From: Candidatus Bathyanammoxibius amoris
GTDB taxonomy: Bacteria; Planctomycetota; Brocadiia; Brocadiales; Bathyanammoxibiaceae
DNA: 44,866 bases
Assembly (NCBI GenBank): GCA_024451685.1
Contig: JAMXCW010000016.1
Coordinates: 1 to 44,866 of the forward strand
Reading direction: 5' to 3'
The notes beneath the pieces are model-generated. The model ran no database searches. It was not told where the DNA came from and worked only from the letters and a program-made list of their open reading frames with translations. Positions 12,974-34,524 of the stretch are shown in pieces; position 1 is the stretch's first letter, and every line of letters starts with the position of its first letter. A program made the position numbers and the translations under genes.

Positions 12974-14611
<1,638 letters not shown>

Positions 14612-14992: not shown

Positions 14993-16618
14993 TTACATAC
15001 CATGGGCATGGGCCGCCGGCCTTCCCTCTTTCTCTTTCTTGGGGATATCACTGACCACGCAGTCTACCATCAGAAGGGTCCCCGCGATGCTGGAAGCGTT
15101 CTGAAGCGCGCAGCGTGTCACCTTGGTAGGATCTATAATACCGGCCTCTATCAAATTAGAGAATTCTTGACCTGTGGCATCAAAACCATACGCGCGGTCC
15201 CTGGATTCCAGTATCTTTTTGACCACAACAGCACCTTCCCGTCCGGCATTCTCGGATATCTGTGCGGCGGGCACCGAAAGCGCGCGTCTTATGATGTCAC
15301 ACCCGACGGCCTCGTCTCCCTTGAGACCGAGCCCGTCTTCCAGGATCTGTGCGGCCCTTAAAAGCGCTACGCCGCCGCCGGGCACCACGCCCTCTTCTAT
15401 GGCCGCCCTGGTGGCATGGAGTGCGTCCTCTATCATCGCCTTCTTCTGTTTAATCTCTGTCTCGGTGGCGGCGCCGACGTTTATCTGCGCAACCCCGCCG
15501 GCCAGCTTTGCCAGCCGTTCCTGAAGCTTTTCTTTATCATAATCGCTGGTGGTGGCTTCTATCTCCGAGCGTATCTGGTTTATCCGCCCGACAATGGCCT
15601 TGTGAGGACCGGCACCCCTGACAATCGTGGTATGCTCTGAATCGATGGTAACTTTCTTGGCATGGCCCATCTGCTTCAACTCCACGGACTCCAGCTGTAT
15701 TCCCAGGTCTTTAAAAATGGGTTTTCCGTCCGTCAGAATCGCAACGTCTTCAAGCATCGCCTTTCTGCGGTCTCCATATCCGGGGGCCTTGACCGCGCAG
15801 CAGGAAAGCGTCCCACGGACCTTGTTAACTACCATGGTGGCCAACGCCTCACCTTCCACATCTTCCGCTATTATCAAGATAGGTTTCCCGCTCCGGGCTA
15901 TCTTTTCCAGGATCGGCACCAACCCCTTTATCCCGGAAATCTTGTCTTCGTATACAAGTATGTAAGGGTCTTCAAGCTCTACGCGCATGTTGTCCGGGTC
16001 GGTTACAAAGTGGGGAGAGAGGTACCCGCGGTCAAACTGCATGCCCTCAACGACCTCCACCTCTGTTACCGGGCGCTTTCCCTCTTCGACAGTAATGACA
16101 CCGTCCTTGCCCACCTTATCCATGGCACTGGCTATCATCTTGCCTATCTCGGGGTCATTGTTAGCCGCAATAGCGCCTATGTTGGCTATCTCGGCCTGCT
16201 CTTTTATCTGCTTGCTCGTATCTCTCAGGTGTTCAACCACCTTGTCCACGGCCTTCTTCATACCGCGGTTTAACAGTAATGGTGCTGCACCGGCGGCCAC
16301 GTTCTTCAACCCCTCCCTGAAAATGGCCTCCGCCAGCACGGTTGCAGTCGTTGTCCCGTCCCCGGCCACGTCACTGGTCTTTGACGCGACCTCTCTGACA
16401 AGCCTGGCCCCCATGTTTTCGTACGGGTCACTTAGCTCTATCTCTTCAGCCACAGAGACACCGTCTTTTGTAACCGTCGGGCTGCCGTATCCCTTATCCA
16501 ATATGGCATTCCTACCCCTGGGTCCCAGGGTGGACTTCACCGCGCGCGAAAGCTTTACAACACCCCTTAAAAGTGCTTCCCTTGCGTTTTCTCTAAAGGC
16601 AAGCTGTTTAGCCGCCAT
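14993..16618 (-). CDS. Chaperonin GroEL, paralogue 2 (upstream of groES)
   Basis: A 541-residue Hsp60. ATP-binding motifs are intact ([23 protein letters not shown]). The apical site reads GYLSPHF. His203 replaces the substrate-contacting Tyr203 of E. coli GroEL, which is needed for substrate binding there. The C-terminus is short and histidine-bearing (RPAAHAHGM), with no GGM repeats. ATG 16618 is chosen because GGGAGGG lies 6 nt upstream. A TTG 15 bp further upstream would add five residues. It is first in groEL2-groES-groEL1, and a 15-bp inverted repeat lies 172 bp upstream. Different substrate choice from paralogue 1 is likely (inference). Confidence 0.93.
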
Positions 16619-16850
16619 TACGGTCCCTCCCAATATTAAACGTATGTATCATAAATGCCAGCATGCTTCTAACTTTCGCAAACCTTGTGCCAATACCCAC
16701 CCATGGAAAGGTAATACATAACGTAATATACCATTTGTACTTACGACATGCCATTCTTCCGGCATATTACCTCCATTCTACACGCCTTACCTGTCAATTT
16801 GGCAGGGCTTGAAAGAGATTATAAAAAAGGTTAAGATTGAATGTTTACCT
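16619..16850. other. Divergent control region groEL2 / uvrA
   Basis: A 232-bp intergenic region driving groEL2 leftward and uvrA rightward. The only clear element is the inverted repeat at 16791-16805. On the minus strand it contains TTGACA, which could be a -35 box, but no well-spaced -10 follows. No CIRCE consensus is present. Confidence 0.5.
16791..16805 (-). promoter_or_regulatory. Putative stress operator (inverted repeat) upstream of groEL2
   Basis: On the minus strand the site reads CTGCCAAATTGACAG: two 7-bp half-sites around one central base, with one mismatch. It matches the site upstream of groEL3 (44557-44571) at 14 of 15 positions, and both sit 155-175 bp from the first ATG. It contains TTGACA, so a bound protein could block RNA polymerase. 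Confidence 0.55.
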
Positions 16851-23469: not shown

Positions 23470-23794
23470 ATCAGGTCCAATAGAGAGGTTTTTTATACGG
23501 ACGGATTTCGTGGGCTTTACCCCCCTAAGTAGATGTTAAATGCTACCTCTTACAAAGGGGTATTTCTCTGAAAACGATACTATACCATAGACTTACTGCA
23601 CAGTCAAATCCGTAAATCAGATAAATTTTAGTTGCAATCCTAGCCTGTATTGCATATATTTGCCATGTATAAAATGGATGAGGTATACATGTTACGACCT
23701 CCCTGTAAATTTCTGCCATTTGCGAGCAACTTGTCTGCTGAGAAAGAGTTGCGGAATCACACCCTGTACGTAGTTGTTGTGTTAAGGAGAGAAT
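23470..23794. other. 325-bp divergent region kdsA / TPR gene
   Basis: AT-rich and without a gene. It holds the predicted promoter of the TPR gene at 23632-23660, with a weaker TTGCCA/TATACA pair (18-bp spacing) at 23660-23689. The kdsA-proximal 60 bp remain in the kdsA frame. Confidence 0.5.
23632..23660 (+). promoter_or_regulatory. Sigma70-type promoter of the TPR/alpha-CTD gene
   Basis: TTGCAA (23632-23637) and TATATT (23655-23660) are separated by 17 bp, close to consensus. The predicted start near 23667 leaves a leader of about 125 nt before the ATG. Confidence 0.5.
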
Positions 23795-25147
23795 ATGGAT
23801 ATAGCGGCTGATACAAGTATATTGGAATCCGAGGACATCTCGAGGGATGACGTAAGACTATTAAGAAACAAGGTTTATGCCTCGGCAGACGAAAAGAAAA
23901 ACCTTGAGGAAGAGGTAGAAAAACTCTCACAGACTGTAAAGAGCGACCAGGACCCTGCTAAGACGAAAATGCTTTGCCAGGGCTTGGGCATCGGTCTCTG
24001 GCTGTTAGGACGTGCAAAGGAGGCTGTGGAGGTATTGGGGGAGGTAAAGTCACGAAGGGTCCCCGCCTATTATCTGGGGAAATGTTACGAGGAATTGGGC
24101 GAATATGAAAAGGCCTTGGACAGCCTTGAGATGTCCCGAAAAGACGGCGCAAGGGAGTTTGACCTGGAGATGGACTTGATAGGCGTGAAGAGAAAGGCCG
24201 GGATGCTAAAAGAGGCCTTGAAGAGGGTGACGCAACTGTCGAAGGCCCATGGTGATGAAGCCGAATTACATTACCAGTGGGGCTGTTGTCTTGAGGACGA
24301 GGGGGAGTATGTTGACGCCATGTCTCATTATCAAAAGGCGTTGGAGCTTGACCCCGAGCATGCCGGGGCGCACTTCCGCATAGCCTATAATTACGACCTT
24401 GAGGGGGAAGACGATAAAGCCATCGAATATTATGAAAAATGCGAGGGCCTCACGCCCACCTTTACCAGCGTGTTTATCAACCTCGGCACGCTGTATGAAG
24501 ACCGTGGAGAATACGAGAAGGCGATAACATGTTTTGAAACCGTGCTCAGGGCCGACCCAGACAACGAAAAGGCATATCTTTATCTCAAGGACGCGAAGGC
24601 CTCCCTTAACATGTACTACGACGAGGAGAGGATAAAGGCCAGGGATAGAGCGTGTGAGGTACTCAACATACCCATATCAGATTTTGAGCTCTCGGTAAGA
24701 AGCAAAAATTGTCTGGAGCGGATGAATATCCGCACCTTAAGGGACCTTACCCTGGTAACTGAGACAGACCTGCTTTCTTACAAGAATTTTGGAGAGACCT
24801 CTTTGAACGAGATAAAAGACGTGTTGGTACAAAAGGGGTTGTCCCTGGGGCAGGCCCTGGAGGCACCCAGGAGTTTCCTGGAGGCGTCCAGGAGGTCTGA
24901 GGAGCAGGCCGCGGTGCTTGAGAGTCCTTTAGCTATGTTGGAGTTGTCGGCCCGCACCACAAAGGCCCTTGAGAAACTGGAGGTAAAAACCGTTGCTGAA
25001 CTGGTGTCCATGTCTGAAGAGGAACTCAGTTCTCACAAGACGTTCAAGAGTGATTATCTGGCGGAGATAAAAGAGAAATTGCTGGCGTATGAACTGAGTC
25101 TGAAAAAAGAGGGGGAGGAGGAGAAGGAGGAGAGTTCAGAAGACTAG
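23795..25147 (+). CDS. TPR protein with two tandem RNA polymerase alpha-CTD-like domains
   Basis: A 450-residue soluble protein. Residues 60-270 contain TPR repeats, clearest at 155-190 (AELHYQWGCCLEDEGEYVD then KALELDPEHA), 191-224 and 225-258. Residues 290-352 match the C-terminal domain of the RNA polymerase alpha subunit: FELSVRSKNCLERM and FGETSLNEIKDVLVQKGLSL. E. coli alpha R265, N268, C269, G296, S299 and E302 have counterparts here (R302, N305, C306 and the FGETSLNE run), but K298 becomes Thr. Residues 376-436 form a second, more divergent copy (MLELSARTTKALEKL, YLAEIKEKLL). A Glu/Lys-rich tail closes the protein. The rest of alpha is missing. A role in DNA or transcription-factor docking is inferred. 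It is followed by ruvC after 58 bp. Confidence 0.88.
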   Translation: MDIAADTSILESEDISRDDVRLLRNKVYASADEKKNLEEEVEKLSQTVKSDQDPAKTKMLCQGLGIGLWLLGRAKEAVEVLGEVKSRRVPAYYLGKCYEELGEYEKALDSLEMSRKDGAREFDLEMDLIGVKRKAGMLKEALKRVTQLSKAHGDEAELHYQWGCCLEDEGEYVDAMSHYQKALELDPEHAGAHFRIAYNYDLEGEDDKAIEYYEKCEGLTPTFTSVFINLGTLYEDRGEYEKAITCFETVLRADPDNEKAYLYLKDAKASLNMYYDEERIKARDRACEVLNIPISDFELSVRSKNCLERMNIRTLRDLTLVTETDLLSYKNFGETSLNEIKDVLVQKGLSLGQALEAPRSFLEASRRSEEQAAVLESPLAMLELSARTTKALEKLEVKTVAELVSMSEEELSSHKTFKSDYLAEIKEKLLAYELSLKKEGEEEKEESSED

Positions 25148-25205: not shown

Positions 25206-25739
25206 TTGGAAGAGGGTGTTGTAACATTGCAAGTGTCAGGGTGGGTCTCAGGGCGAGTGTTAGGGGTTGATCCCGGCCTCGCGGTAACTGGTTTCGCCGT
25301 GGTGGAGGTTCTTGAACGGGGCGGCCAGGTAAAAGATTACGGTTGCATAAGAACCAGTTCCAAGCTTGCCAAGCCTGAGCGGCTAGGTGCCATATACAAC
25401 GGTATACACGACATAATCTCTAAGTGGTCGCCGAATTTACTTGTTATAGAAGACGCCTTTGTCAATATGAAATATCCTAAGGCCGCGCTTCAACTGGGAG
25501 AGGTAAGAGGCGCAATAAGCGTGGCGGCCCGGAACTTGAACGTAGACGTTTGTGAAATAATGCCTTCCGAGGCGAAACTGGCATTGACCGGTAATGGTGG
25601 CGCCGGTAAGGCACAGGTGGCGAACGCGGTGAGGAGGATACTGGTTACAGACGCCCCTTTCGGGTCAAGTCACGTCTCAGACGCGCTTGCACTGGCCCTG
25701 ACGGGTCTGTCCCGGAGTGGCCGGTTCAATTGGCCCTGA
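25206..25739 (+). CDS. ruvC: Holliday junction endonuclease RuvC
   Basis: RuvC resolves Holliday junctions made during recombinational repair. The acidic catalytic residues are visible in LGVDPGLA (first Asp), LLVIEDAFV (Glu) and SHVSDALALAL (Asp). The frame opens at TTG 25206, but RuvC proteins usually start one or two residues before the LGVDPG strand. TTG 25227 (GAGGGTG about 8 nt upstream), GTG 25233 or GTG 25257 may be the real start, so up to 17 N-terminal residues are doubtful. It lies in ruvC-ruvA-ruvB order, 102 bp before ruvA. The motifs are intact and the length, about 160-177 residues, is normal. Confidence 0.92.
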   Translation: MEEGVVTLQVSGWVSGRVLGVDPGLAVTGFAVVEVLERGGQVKDYGCIRTSSKLAKPERLGAIYNGIHDIISKWSPNLLVIEDAFVNMKYPKAALQLGEVRGAISVAARNLNVDVCEIMPSEAKLALTGNGGAGKAQVANAVRRILVTDAPFGSSHVSDALALALTGLSRSGRFNWP

Positions 25740-25841: not shown

Positions 25842-26456
25842 GTGATCCGGTACCTTAAAGGAACACTATTAAAAAAGGAAGACGACAGAATCGTTCTATT
25901 TACAAACGGCGTTGGATATGAAGTCCGGTTGCCCGTAGTGGTAAGGTCAACGTACAATGAAAAGGAGATTGGCGAGGAGGTAGAGCTTTACATCTCCTAC
26001 CAGCAGGCCGAAAAGCAGCCGAAACCTGTCCTTGTCGGTTTCAATAGTGAACCTGAGCGGGAGTTTTTTGAGAAACTCCTTACCGTGCACCGTATAGGGA
26101 CCTCAACGGCGGTAGACGCCCTCACAATACCCATAAGCAGGATAGCAAAGGCCATTGAGGATAAAGACGTCTCCACGTTGAAAAAGCTGAATGGCATTGG
26201 GGCGCGCGCCGCGGAAAAGATTGTTGCCGAGCTAAACGGTAAGATGGCAAAATACGCCCTGATGAGTGAAGGCGCTCCACTTGAGCCAGGTGAACCGGAA
26301 GACCTTAAAAAGCAGGTGGTAGACGTGCTGGTCAGGCAGCTGGGGTACAGGTCCAGCGAGGCGTCCAGAATGGTCGAAACGGCCATGGAGAGGTCTCCGG
26401 AAATCAGTTCTCCTGAGAAGCTGTTTGAAGAGGTCTACAAGTACCAGAAAACTTGA
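25842..26456 (+). CDS. ruvA: Holliday junction branch migration protein RuvA
   Basis: A 204-residue DNA-binding tetramer subunit that positions RuvB on the junction. It starts at GTG 25842 (MIRYLKGTLLKK). The N-terminal OB-fold includes GVGYEVRLP. Helix-hairpin-helix motifs occur at LLTVHRIGTSTAVDAL and LKKLNGIGARAAEKIVAEL, and the C-terminal RuvB-interacting domain begins at PEDLKKQVVDVL. The first hairpin reads RIGTSTA, where many RuvA proteins have GIGPKLA, a mild divergence. No strong ribosome-binding site precedes the GTG. It is followed 57 bp later by ruvB. Confidence 0.95.
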   Translation: MIRYLKGTLLKKEDDRIVLFTNGVGYEVRLPVVVRSTYNEKEIGEEVELYISYQQAEKQPKPVLVGFNSEPEREFFEKLLTVHRIGTSTAVDALTIPISRIAKAIEDKDVSTLKKLNGIGARAAEKIVAELNGKMAKYALMSEGAPLEPGEPEDLKKQVVDVLVRQLGYRSSEASRMVETAMERSPEISSPEKLFEEVYKYQKT

Positions 26457-26513: not shown

Positions 26514-27572
26514 ATGGTGCCACCGGAAACTTGTGAAGCCTTACACCCGGCCTCTACCTCCGGCGGGAATGACGTGTACAACCTGAGGCCCAAAAATTTA
26601 TCCGAATATATCGGCCAGTCACAGGTGGTCGAATCTCTCGGTATCGCCGTAGAGGCCGCGAAGAAAAGGGCCGACGCCGTGGACCACGTCCTTCTGTTCG
26701 GCCCCCCCGGACTGGGCAAGACAACCCTCGCCAACATAATTGCCGTAGAGATGGAGGTGGATATAGTTACCACGTCCGGCCCCGCCCTTGAAAAGAGCGG
26801 AGATTTGATAGGTATACTGACGAATCTAAAAAAAGGAGACGTCCTTTTTATAGATGAGATCCATCGCGTGCCCAAGACAGTAGAAGAATACCTGTACTCC
26901 GCTATGGAAGATTATTTTATAAACGTCATTTTTGACAAAGGGATGAACGCGCGCAGTTATCGTTCGAGGCTGGAGGAGTTTACCATGGTGGGCGCGACCA
27001 CCAGGGCAGGGCTTCTGTCCTCCCCGCTCAGAGAGAGGTTCGGCATACAGAGGGGCCTGGATTTTTACAGCATAGAGGAACTCTCCAGGGTCATCGCGCG
27101 TTCCGCGTCACTTCTCGGCGTGACCATTGAAAATGACGGCATCGGGGAGATAGCAAAACGTTCCCGGGGAACTCCGAGGATAGCCAACAGGGTTCTCAGG
27201 CGGGTCAGGGACTATGCCGAAGTACGGTCAAATGGCGTGATAACAAGTTCTGTCGCATGCGACGCCCTTCGCCTGGAAGGTATCGACGAGGAAGGGCTTT
27301 CAATATTGGACCGGAAATTCCTGGAGACTATAATCTGTAATTATAAAGGCGGCCCGGTCGGGCTGGAGGCGATAGCGGCCGTCCTTCACGAGGAGCCGGA
27401 CACCCTCGCGGACATGGTGGAACCCTATCTGCTGAAGGCCGGTTTCGTGCTCAGGACACCAAAGGGCAGAAAGGCCACCGAACGCGCCTATTCCCGTCTG
27501 GGGCACCCCGTGCCTGACGGGACCGGCGGACAGCTTCCTCTACTACCCGGACATAAAGGAAGTAATACATGA
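26514..27572 (+). CDS. ruvB: Holliday junction ATPase RuvB
   Basis: A 352-residue AAA+ motor that drives branch migration. It shows the RuvB opening [13 protein letters not shown], Walker [10 protein letters not shown], Walker B LFIDEIHR, the sensor region MVGATTRAG, the arginine-finger region LRERFGI, and the winged-helix C-terminus ([17 protein letters not shown]). TAGGAGGCCC precedes the ATG. The stop overlaps the next gene in ATGA, so ruvB and queH are translationally coupled. A 15-residue low-complexity lead before NLRPK and a short tail ([12 protein letters not shown]) are the only unusual parts. Confidence 0.96.
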
Positions 27573-30966: not shown

Positions 30967-33900
30967 ATGCCTAAGGAAATCTACCGCTGGAAGATGCCAC
31001 TTATAGTAATCTTGATTGCCGTTGCCATCTTTGCCCTTTATCCGCCGACCAACAAGGTGATGAAGGTTGAGAAGATAAAGGAAGTCGACGGGCAGGTCGT
31101 GGAACGGGAAATAATAGAAAAGTCGTGGATGACCTTTTTGATGGGGAAACCTGTCCGCAAAGAGGTTATCATCAGGGAGGAAATTGGCGCTGACGGCAAG
31201 AAAATAACCGAAAAAATTGTGGAAGAGATAGCCAGGGGTAGAGTAAAGCTGGGTCTGGACCTCAGGGGTGGGTCTGAGCTCACATACAAGGTAAGGATCT
31301 CACCCGCTGAGGATAAGCCGGGGATTACCCAGGAGGTTATAGACGTACTGGAGAAGAGAATAGACCCCAGAGGCATAATGGAGTACAGGATACAGGAGCA
31401 GGGATACCACCGCATCCTTATTCAGGTTCCGGGCGCCAGCCACTACGAGACAGAAAAGCTCAAGGAGCGGATAGTGCGGCTGGGGAAGCTTGAATTCAGG
31501 ATTGGCGCGCCAAGAGACTCTAAGGAGTACAAAGACGCCCTCGAGGGTAAACCCGTGGCGGGTTACTACAAGCATTGGGTCGGAAAAAAGAAGGGAGAGA
31601 CGGGCGAGCTTACGGAAGAATGGTACCTGGTACGGAACAAGATAGAGCTCAGCGGAGAGAATTTGTCCAGGGTCTATCCCGACCGCAAGAACGTGCAACC
31701 CGTAGTAGGCTTTGAGTTTAATACCGAGGGCAAGGCAAAGTTCAGCCAGCTCACCGAGCGGAATATCGGGAAGCCGCTTGCCATTATTCTCGACGATATA
31801 CTGTACTCCTCGCCGGTTATCCGCGAGCGTATACCGGGCCGGGGCATTATCGAGGGGAACTTCACACAGGAAGAGGTCAATAATCTCCTGGCTATTATGC
31901 GGGCAGGAAGCCTTCCGGCCGACCTTGACCTGGAAATGGAAATAAGCGTAGGCCCCAGCCTGGGTAGAGATTCTATCAGACACGGTCTAACGGCAGGTCT
32001 TGTGGGTGGCGCATTTGTCGTGTTCTTCATGGCGACATATTATCTTGGCGCGGGCCTGGTCGCCAACATGGCGCTGGGTTTAAACATGCTTCTTGTCATA
32101 GGGACCCTGGCACTTTTAGGAGCCACGCTGACCCTTCCCGGTATCGCGGGACTGGTGTTGATTGTAGGTATGGCGGTAGACGCCAACGTGCTGATCTTTG
32201 AGAGAATCAGGGAAGAGATAAACAGGGGTAAGGCAATACCGCAGGCGCTGAAGACCGGTTACGAAAAGGCATTTACCACAATTATCGACTCGAACCTGAC
32301 CACACTTATCACCGCCCTCATACTCTACGCCGTGGGTACCGGTCCCGTTAAGGGTTTCGGTATAACCCTGACGATCGGCCTCCTGGTCAACCTCTTTACC
32401 GCCATATTCGTTACCAGGGTGATATTTGAGATCCTGGACATGAAGGCGTTCAGGATGTTACAGTTCTTCCAGAGACCACACCTGCAACTCCTCAGTTTCT
32501 TTAAGGTGACGGCCCTGGCATCGGTCGTGTTGATTGCCATCGGGCTGACGGTCTTTACGTGGCGGGGCAACGACAAGTACGATATAGACTTTACGGGTGG
32601 CACGCTGGTACATCTACAACTGGCTGACCCCACACCAACCGGGGCCGTAAGGGACGCATTGGCCAACGCAGGCTATGACAACGCAGAGGTCCAGGGCATC
32701 TGGGATACAGCCACCGTATCTGCGGCAGAGGCGTCAGAGTTTGGAATAAGGATAAAGGGCATAAGCGATGAAAAGGCCTCCGAGAAACTGGAAAACGACG
32801 TCAAAAAGGCCCTTGGCAACCGGTTGGGCGATATGGCGTTCGGCGCGACGCCCGCAATTTTGAAGCTGACACTGCAGGCCCCGGCAGAGGAATCTGAACT
32901 CAGAGCACAGCTTGCCAACATGGGATATACCAACGAGGACATAATATCACTTTATCCCGTCGGTGTAACGACTAAGAGCTTTAAGATTACCGTACCAACC
33001 TTAAGAGATATAAATGCGCGTGTTGAGACCACGGAACTTCTTTCCCAGGGTATACCAGGTCTGGCCTTTAACGAGGTAAACCTAAGTTTTGGAGAGATGA
33101 GAGAGGTAGCGCCCCAGGCAGTTGCGCCGGGGATGATGCCCATCGCCCGGGGCGGGCTTGAATGTGACCTCAGCAGCCCTGTAGACCCTCAGCTTCTCGA
33201 GCTGGAGCTCGAAAGGTGGGGTTTTACAGACGTTGTCGTCATAATGCGAGAAGAGAGGACGAGAAAAGCACGCAGTTCGCGGCTTGAGATACGCGGCCCG
33301 GTGAACACTTTGACCGAGATAAAGGAGGGGATGGAAAAAACCGTCAAGCTCCCCGCGTTTACGTTCCTGACGGACACCTCTCTGAGGATAGAACTGGACA
33401 GCCCTCAAGAAAAACAGGTCCTGAAAGACCATCTCACGGCACTCGGTGTCACCCGGCTAATCTCTCTGAACGCGCCGTCCGAGTCCTTCTCAATAGAGAT
33501 GAACCCCTTAAGCGCCAGCAAGGTCCAAGAGAAGATAAGTGACGACATAATTGATACGTTCAAGGACAGTTTTCTCCATGAAAAGACAGGTGTGAGCTTT
33601 GAAGACCTGCCGGAGACGGCCGGCGCGGAGGGGTCCGCCACAGAGCCGGAAGCGGCTGAATCCCTGGTGCTTATGACCCCTGGCAAACCCATGATAAAGG
33701 AGAGAATAGAGGACATACTCTCAAAAGCGGGCTACGCCGGTGCGCTGGCAGAGACCCTTGAACCGGGAAAGACCTATCGCTCTGTGAAGATCCGTATAAA
33801 GACCACAGAGGTTGAGGCGATGAAGGCTGACCTGACCAAGGCCCTTATGGTTACCGATCCGCTGAAGAGGGTGGTAAGTATTGGTTCAACGGTTGCCGGA

Positions 33901-34524
33901 GAGATGAAGAACAGGGCGGTTTTGGCACTTATATTTGCCTTGTTTGCCATTATCATTTATATATGGATTCGCTTCGGCGAGATCAAGTTCGGCGTTGCCG
34001 CGGTCTTAGCCCTTATACATGACGTGCTCTTTGCTATGGGGGCGGTAGCCGTGGCGGGTTGTTATCCCGCTATCTTTGGCGACGTCAAGATGAACCTCGC
34101 CATGGTAGCCTCCTTCCTCACGCTCATCGGTTATTCGCTCAACGATACTATTGTGGTTTTCGACAGGATAAGGGAGAACATGGCCGGTAAAAAGACGGTG
34201 AGCGAGGAGTTGGTCAATGAAAGCATAAATCAAACCTTGAACCGGACGGTAATAACGTCTGTAACCACGTTCTTCGTGATATCGTCCCTCTATTTCCTGG
34301 GCGGTACGGAGATACACGGTTTTGCGTTTGTTATGATGGTTGGTGTGGTGGTTGGTACGTATTCTTCTATATTTGTTGCGAGCCCCGTCCTTGTCTACTG
34401 GTCAACGGTAAGGAAGGGCTTTGGTTTTGTGTTTTTAGTTTTGACTGCGCCCCTGTGGATCCCCTGGAAAGTGATTAAGAGCTTACTTGGGGGCGGGAGC
34501 AGTATTCGTCCACGCAGGGCGTAG
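30967..34524 (+). CDS. secDF: SecD-SecF fusion with expanded periplasmic region
   Basis: A 1185-residue fusion of SecD and SecF, which use the proton gradient to pull exported proteins through SecYEG. The SecD half (1-500) has an N-terminal helix, GLDLRGGSELTYKV (D98 region), the P1 domain, and helices from about 340 with GMAVDANVLIFERIREE. The SecF half begins near 508 with KYDIDFTGGT and ends in five helices from 982 (YSLNDTIVVFDRIREN at about 1056-1071). Bacterial SecDF fusions are usually 730-850 residues. The surplus lies between 547 and 970, where about five copies of a roughly 65-residue beta-alpha-beta unit occur in place of one. The ATG is preceded by AGAGAGG. It closes the tgt-yajC-secDF cluster. 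Confidence 0.95.
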   Translation: MPKEIYRWKMPLIVILIAVAIFALYPPTNKVMKVEKIKEVDGQVVEREIIEKSWMTFLMGKPVRKEVIIREEIGADGKKITEKIVEEIARGRVKLGLDLRGGSELTYKVRISPAEDKPGITQEVIDVLEKRIDPRGIMEYRIQEQGYHRILIQVPGASHYETEKLKERIVRLGKLEFRIGAPRDSKEYKDALEGKPVAGYYKHWVGKKKGETGELTEEWYLVRNKIELSGENLSRVYPDRKNVQPVVGFEFNTEGKAKFSQLTERNIGKPLAIILDDILYSSPVIRERIPGRGIIEGNFTQEEVNNLLAIMRAGSLPADLDLEMEISVGPSLGRDSIRHGLTAGLVGGAFVVFFMATYYLGAGLVANMALGLNMLLVIGTLALLGATLTLPGIAGLVLIVGMAVDANVLIFERIREEINRGKAIPQALKTGYEKAFTTIIDSNLTTLITALILYAVGTGPVKGFGITLTIGLLVNLFTAIFVTRVIFEILDMKAFRMLQFFQRPHLQLLSFFKVTALASVVLIAIGLTVFTWRGNDKYDIDFTGGTLVHLQLADPTPTGAVRDALANAGYDNAEVQGIWDTATVSAAEASEFGIRIKGISDEKASEKLENDVKKALGNRLGDMAFGATPAILKLTLQAPAEESELRAQLANMGYTNEDIISLYPVGVTTKSFKITVPTLRDINARVETTELLSQGIPGLAFNEVNLSFGEMREVAPQAVAPGMMPIARGGLECDLSSPVDPQLLELELERWGFTDVVVIMREERTRKARSSRLEIRGPVNTLTEIKEGMEKTVKLPAFTFLTDTSLRIELDSPQEKQVLKDHLTALGVTRLISLNAPSESFSIEMNPLSASKVQEKISDDIIDTFKDSFLHEKTGVSFEDLPETAGAEGSATEPEAAESLVLMTPGKPMIKERIEDILSKAGYAGALAETLEPGKTYRSVKIRIKTTEVEAMKADLTKALMVTDPLKRVVSIGSTVAGEMKNRAVLALIFALFAIIIYIWIRFGEIKFGVAAVLALIHDVLFAMGAVAVAGCYPAIFGDVKMNLAMVASFLTLIGYSLNDTIVVFDRIRENMAGKKTVSEELVNESINQTLNRTVITSVTTFFVISSLYFLGGTEIHGFAFVMMVGVVVGTYSSIFVASPVLVYWSTVRKGFGFVFLVLTAPLWIPWKVIKSLLGGGSSIRPRRA

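Follow-up and report, generated by a model that had tools for sequence, protein, structure and literature searches.

A near-universal protein of Planctomycetota carries two tandem RNA polymerase alpha-CTDs on a TPR scaffold and is probably a promoter-type DNA binder

A gene encoding a TPR protein with two tandem copies of the RNA polymerase (RNAP) alpha C-terminal domain (alpha-CTD; copies CTD1 and CTD2) is present phylum-wide in Planctomycetota, normally in single copy. Since CTD1 is kept more strictly than the polymerase's own CTD, the protein probably serves the phylum as a core DNA-binding factor, so far undescribed, that acts most likely at promoters. The gene was analyzed in a stretch of 44,866 nucleotides from Candidatus Bathyanammoxibius amoris (contig JAMXCW010000016.1), called the window below, in which the following features were assigned:

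23784–23789, plus strand: Shine-Dalgarno sequence AAGGAG, shortly 5′ of the ATG
23795–25147, plus strand: TPR-alphaCTD1-alphaCTD2 protein, 450 aa, ATG start (ORF and Pfam)
23954–24637, plus strand: TPR superhelix, residues 54–281 (Pfam, AF2 model, conservation over 86 sequences)
24566–24664, plus strand: long helix, residues 258–290, running directly into CTD1 (AF2 model)
24659–24853, plus strand: CTD1, residues 289–353, DNA-contact and sigma-contact residues kept
24917–25108, plus strand: CTD2, residues 375–438, DNA-contact residues partly gone in Brocadiales

Pfam family PF03118 (RNA_pol_A_CTD) matched the whole protein in two stretches with 111.9 bits (cut-off 23.8; E 1.2e-32), the individual copies scoring 77.9 and 50.1 bits. 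TPR_2 matched in four stretches of tandem 34-residue helical repeats (E 1.8e-28), in agreement with the AF2 model. Neither of the alpha-NTD families PF01000 and PF01193 gave a Pfam match, which together confirms the architecture proposed in an earlier note on this DNA, namely two tandem alpha-CTDs on a TPR scaffold without the alpha-NTD. The rpoA models remained far below their cut-off on this protein (110.5 vs 227.8 bits), and the true rpoA of the genome is located elsewhere, on contig C10; the protein belongs with the alpha-CTD domain family and not with the alpha subunits (RpoA). PDB sequence matches to residues 285–450 were all RNAP alpha subunits (best 5.7e-14), with only CTD1 being covered. 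In the AF2 model (pLDDT 85), the TPR superhelix is followed by the long helix, CTD1, a disordered linker and CTD2. The best 50 Foldseek matches to the CTD part alone, likewise modelled with AF2, were alpha-CTDs of RNAP or alpha subunits that include this domain, among them 9zum (Caulobacter alpha-CTD on AT-rich DNA), with a TM to the target of up to 0.94. A generic helix-hairpin-helix (HhH) domain as in DNA repair, the identity that the note had set against its own assignment, was rejected, because no HhH family was found by Pfam at E<0.01 and the Foldseek matches were alpha-CTDs.

For comparison of residues, the alpha-CTDs were numbered by alignment to the E. coli alpha-CTD, the CTD1 set comprising 86 sequences. 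The DNA-contact residues of CTD1 are conserved to 100% (R265), 94% (N268), 95% (C269), 100% (N294), 100% (G296), 99% (S299), and 99% (E302), and the sigma-contact acids to 91% (D259) and 92% (E261); E286/E288 are also conserved, and R317 is not kept. In the window, the residues named earlier proved to be correctly assigned both for CTD1 (R302 = R265, N305 = N268, C306 = C269, G333 = G296, T335 at 298, S336 = S299, E339 = E302) and for CTD2 (R387, K390 and K418 at 265, 268 and 296). Beyond that list, CTD1 keeps N331 (= N294) and carries E334 at K297, a charge reversal; Glu or Asp at this position, found in 96% of CTD1, is a CTD1-specific change, by which a backbone contact could be weakened. 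The view that all contacts except K298 are kept thus holds for the residue itself, but Thr298 is not a loss, because the RpoA of the phylum has it too (90% of 29 sequences). In nine matched genomes, mean CTD identity was 72.0% for CTD1 vs 61.3% for the RpoA CTD, and CTD1 is 51% identical to the E. coli alpha-CTD and 45% to the RpoA CTD of its own genome. Its signature consists of F260, M273, Y/F292, E297, a hydrophobic residue (I/M/L) at 306 (Lys in 100% of RpoA) and K310. As we judge from the known fold, several CTD1-specific positions face away from the DNA, hinting at a protein interface.

CTD2 outside Brocadiales retains R265 (98%), N294 (93%), G296 (98%), S299 (90%), and E302 (100%), whereas in Brocadiales G296 is gone, N294 is down to 8% and S299 is lost. 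From the set R265, N268, N294, G296, S299 and E302, complete in CTD1, the CTD2 of the window has only R265 and E302 left. Its description as degenerate is therefore accurate for Brocadiales including the window and does not extend to the rest of Planctomycetota, where the domain is intact, so that the copy in the window represents local decay of a once competent domain. In Brocadiales, to judge from the residues, only CTD1 still looks DNA-competent. Within the TPR region (n = 86), the last repeats are the best conserved part, with N229 (100%), E235 (95%), D236 (93%), C246 (91%), M273 (94%), and D276 (91%) in protein numbering and the near-invariant motifs FRxAYxxDLxGEDxxA (194–209), NLGxLYEDxGxYxKA (229–243), and DA..SLNMYYDE (266–277).

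A strong homologue (E below 1e-40, hand count) was present in 140 of 149 sampled Planctomycetota genomes, the nine others being mostly incomplete assemblies. The gene is near-universal in the phylum and not an isolated oddity, and this distribution rejects a chance or isolated fusion. In 118 of the 149 genomes (hand count), the number of PF03118 domains was exactly three, which at inspected loci corresponds to one copy in RpoA and two in the TPR-alphaCTD protein. Phylum specificity was compared against Verrucomicrobiota (79 genomes) and Bacteroidota (61 genomes) only, and there mostly the single copy of RpoA was found. The nearest named relatives belong to Brocadiales, Scalindua, Brocadia and further Planctomycetota. 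An origin from a mobile element was rejected, as there was no full-length plasmid match and the listed plasmid matches were TPR-only or rpoA-like; named phage matches were annotated as rpoA, and the remaining ones carried no annotation. A tree joined CTD1 with CTD2 (SH-aLRT 99), from 62 columns only and with a grouping of CTD1 and planctomycete RpoA not rejected (p-AU 0.68). In one genome of the same order (G088, loci L010/L096), the homologue is a 387-aa frame with one CTD, without CTD2 and without an adjoining ruvA. Eight long homologues were scanned for N-terminal fusions hinting at a partner, and TPRs alone were found. As the earlier note had stated, no function appears to be described for this architecture: nothing relevant on TPR + alpha-CTD proteins was found in the open-access papers covered, which does not prove absence.

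With moderate confidence, we regard the protein as a bivalent minor-groove DNA adaptor that acts through its alpha-CTDs and couples a partner via the TPRs, most likely in transcription initiation. Its two alpha-CTDs, detached from RNAP, would reach with an R265-type arginine (R302; the homologues of R387) into the minor groove of AT-rich DNA resembling UP elements, in the manner of the polymerase's alpha-CTD, while the TPR superhelix would grip a partner through its strongly conserved last repeats and the acidic patch D259/E261 of CTD1 would face sigma region 4. Certain promoters would thereby be given extra alpha-CTDs, or a TPR-bound protein would be tethered there. The RpoD of the same genome reads HPVRS at the place that we take to be equivalent to R603 of E. 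coli sigma70, and the Arg appears to be kept. In E. coli, D259/E261 of alpha contact R603 of sigma70 (PMC5511352), and R265 and N268 of the alpha-CTD are required for DNA binding (PMC11434276). The analysis shows the architecture, the fold match, the conservation, the distribution and the linkage to ruvA; from there on, we infer DNA binding via R302, sigma contact, recruitment of a partner by the TPRs and a promoter role, promoter-type DNA binding being probable. This reading is favored by the conservation of the contact residues in CTD1 and, outside Brocadiales, in CTD2, the stricter conservation of CTD1 than of the RpoA CTD, the near-universality of the gene and the DNA-bound alpha-CTD structures among the Foldseek matches; the K297 reversal in CTD1, the alpha-CTD of PglW outside transcription (see below), and the recurrence of ruvA, which is no transcription gene, as neighbor count against it. 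A more specific and rather doubtful version makes the protein an extra, near-universal initiation component of Planctomycetota, in which a TPR arm holds a trans-acting alpha-CTD pair that would dock next to sigma at promoters and bring a phylum-specific partner to them. For the gene itself, one promoter candidate was assigned:

23632–23660, plus strand: candidate promoter TTGCAA-17-TATATT (consensus match only)

It is abutted on its 5′ side by the AT-rich TAAATTTTAG (23622–23631), which is largely kept in three relatives and could be a putative UP element involved in autoregulation. A promoter motif shared genome-wide was rejected, since TAAATTTTAGTTGCA was found exactly once in its own genome, without a regulon.

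Detached alpha-CTDs also occur in other proteins of these phyla, and in six of seven further non-RpoA alpha-CTD ORFs examined (Verrucomicrobiota, Planctomycetota) sigma70 region 4 is present as well:

L182, 504–1754 (Verrucomicrobiota genome G196): complete sigma-70-family factor (regions 1.2, 2, 3, 4) with C-terminal alpha-CTD
L187, 1593–4001, and L188, 1538–3499 (Planctomycetota): alpha-CTD-like repeats and sigma70 region 4
L183, L184 and L185 (Verrucomicrobiota): alpha-CTD-like repeats and sigma70 region 4

Loose alpha-CTDs thus accompany sigma in Verrucomicrobiota and Planctomycetota, which favors a role near sigma. All six share with the TPR-alphaCTD protein a CTD detached from alpha, in one to three copies and in the same group of phyla; they differ by having sigma region 4 in place of the TPRs and by being sporadic instead of universal, with one to three alpha-CTD-like repeats each and a weak HARE-HTH match in two among L183–L185, L187 and L188. 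A fourth, short alpha-CTD ORF (L186, 786–1448; genome G136, family f24), in which no further domain was recognized, is present in genomes of one planctomycete family. The TPR superhelix is common to MamA and the TPR domain of O-GlcNAc transferase, and none of these is known to carry an alpha-CTD. Compared with the RpoA CTD (PF03118), the fold, the DNA set around residue 265 and the sigma acids 259/261 are the same; RpoA, however, holds its CTD on a flexible tether to the polymerase, whereas the TPR-alphaCTD protein lacks the alpha-NTD and has two tandem CTDs on a TPR scaffold. A detached alpha-CTD-like helical domain outside transcription is known from the defence protein PglW of BREX type 2 (PMC12839542), to whose alpha-CTD-like part the CTD2 of the window aligns (E 4.4e-9, a whole-protein figure). 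PglW differs in being a kinase/nuclease defence protein with a single CTD, without a common TPR scaffold and not a core gene.

The gene neighborhood raises an alternative that we consider unlikely, namely an accessory protein of recombination or repair, whose alpha-CTDs would solely be minor-groove binders bringing a TPR partner or RuvAB to DNA and whose membership in a ruv operon would be functional. Downstream in the window lie:

25206–25739, plus strand: ruvC, the next gene (Pfam PF02075)
25842–26456, plus strand: ruvA (Pfam)
26514–27572, plus strand: ruvB (Pfam)

The TPR-alphaCTD gene heads this same-strand run, which continues with queH, a SpoIID-domain gene, tgt, a small ORF and secDF; a DAHP-synthetase-family gene lies upstream in opposite direction. 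SecD and SecF are fused in one ORF of 1185 aa (30967–34524), in which the SecD match ends at about 616 and the SecF match, a long stretch further on, begins at 910. Two neighboring Cpn60 chaperonin genes (12974–14599 and 14993–16633) are located on the minus strand, with a DnaJ gene further downstream. RuvA was encoded downstream on the same strand at 42 of 93 loci from 16 families spread over the family tree, counts that are approximate owing to short flanks at some loci and to repeated loci from the same genome. The distance to ruvA is often a few bases, the two genes adjoin directly in most of the 16 families, and ruvC stands between them only in the family of the window and close relatives; at one further locus, ruvA is convergent. 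Most simply, the two genes would have formed an ancestral pair whose linkage was lost repeatedly. Against a functional link, however, sampled families without the linkage outnumber those with it, so that it is dispensable; operon partners may share expression only, ruv genes also occur in phyla without the TPR-alphaCTD protein, and D259/E261 would be retained without obvious reason. RNAP or sigma genes were not seen among the recurrent neighbors, a result that counts against the promoter reading.

Quite improbable in our estimation is a decoy or anti-activator, in which the detached alpha-CTDs would take up activators or sigma region 4 in competition with RNAP. The conservation of the sigma patch (D259/E261) and of E286/E288 fits such a function, but the best-kept residues are the DNA contacts, for which a pure decoy would have no use. 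The competition for activators that the earlier note had offered gains little here, as R317 is missing from the 287 determinant, an E. coli feature whose full conservation is confined to Gammaproteobacteria (PMC12531629). A nucleoid or chromosome organiser, bridging AT-rich DNA genome-wide through a scaffold that links two minor-groove binders, would suit a near-universal gene with tandem, DNA-competent-looking CTDs in most of the phylum; we think it very improbable, as the protein is retained although CTD2 is decayed in Brocadiales and absent in one genome, and the sigma-patch conservation would be left unexplained. Purely protein–protein contact by the alpha-CTD fold, with DNA residues retained for folding, would agree with the probable protein interface of CTD1 (its own conserved M273, I/M/L306, K310 and F260, several judged off the DNA side) but is hardly credible, since the CTD2 of Brocadiales keeps its predicted fold without N294, G296 and S299, which are thus not required for folding.

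Within the phylum, a transposon essentiality map is available for Planctopirus limnophila (PMC10632474). The TPR-alphaCTD protein means that the alpha-CTD can exist as a free-standing module, and the stronger conservation of CTD1 than of the RpoA CTD in the compared genomes suggests that an additional factor, so far undescribed, takes part in reading planctomycete promoters.
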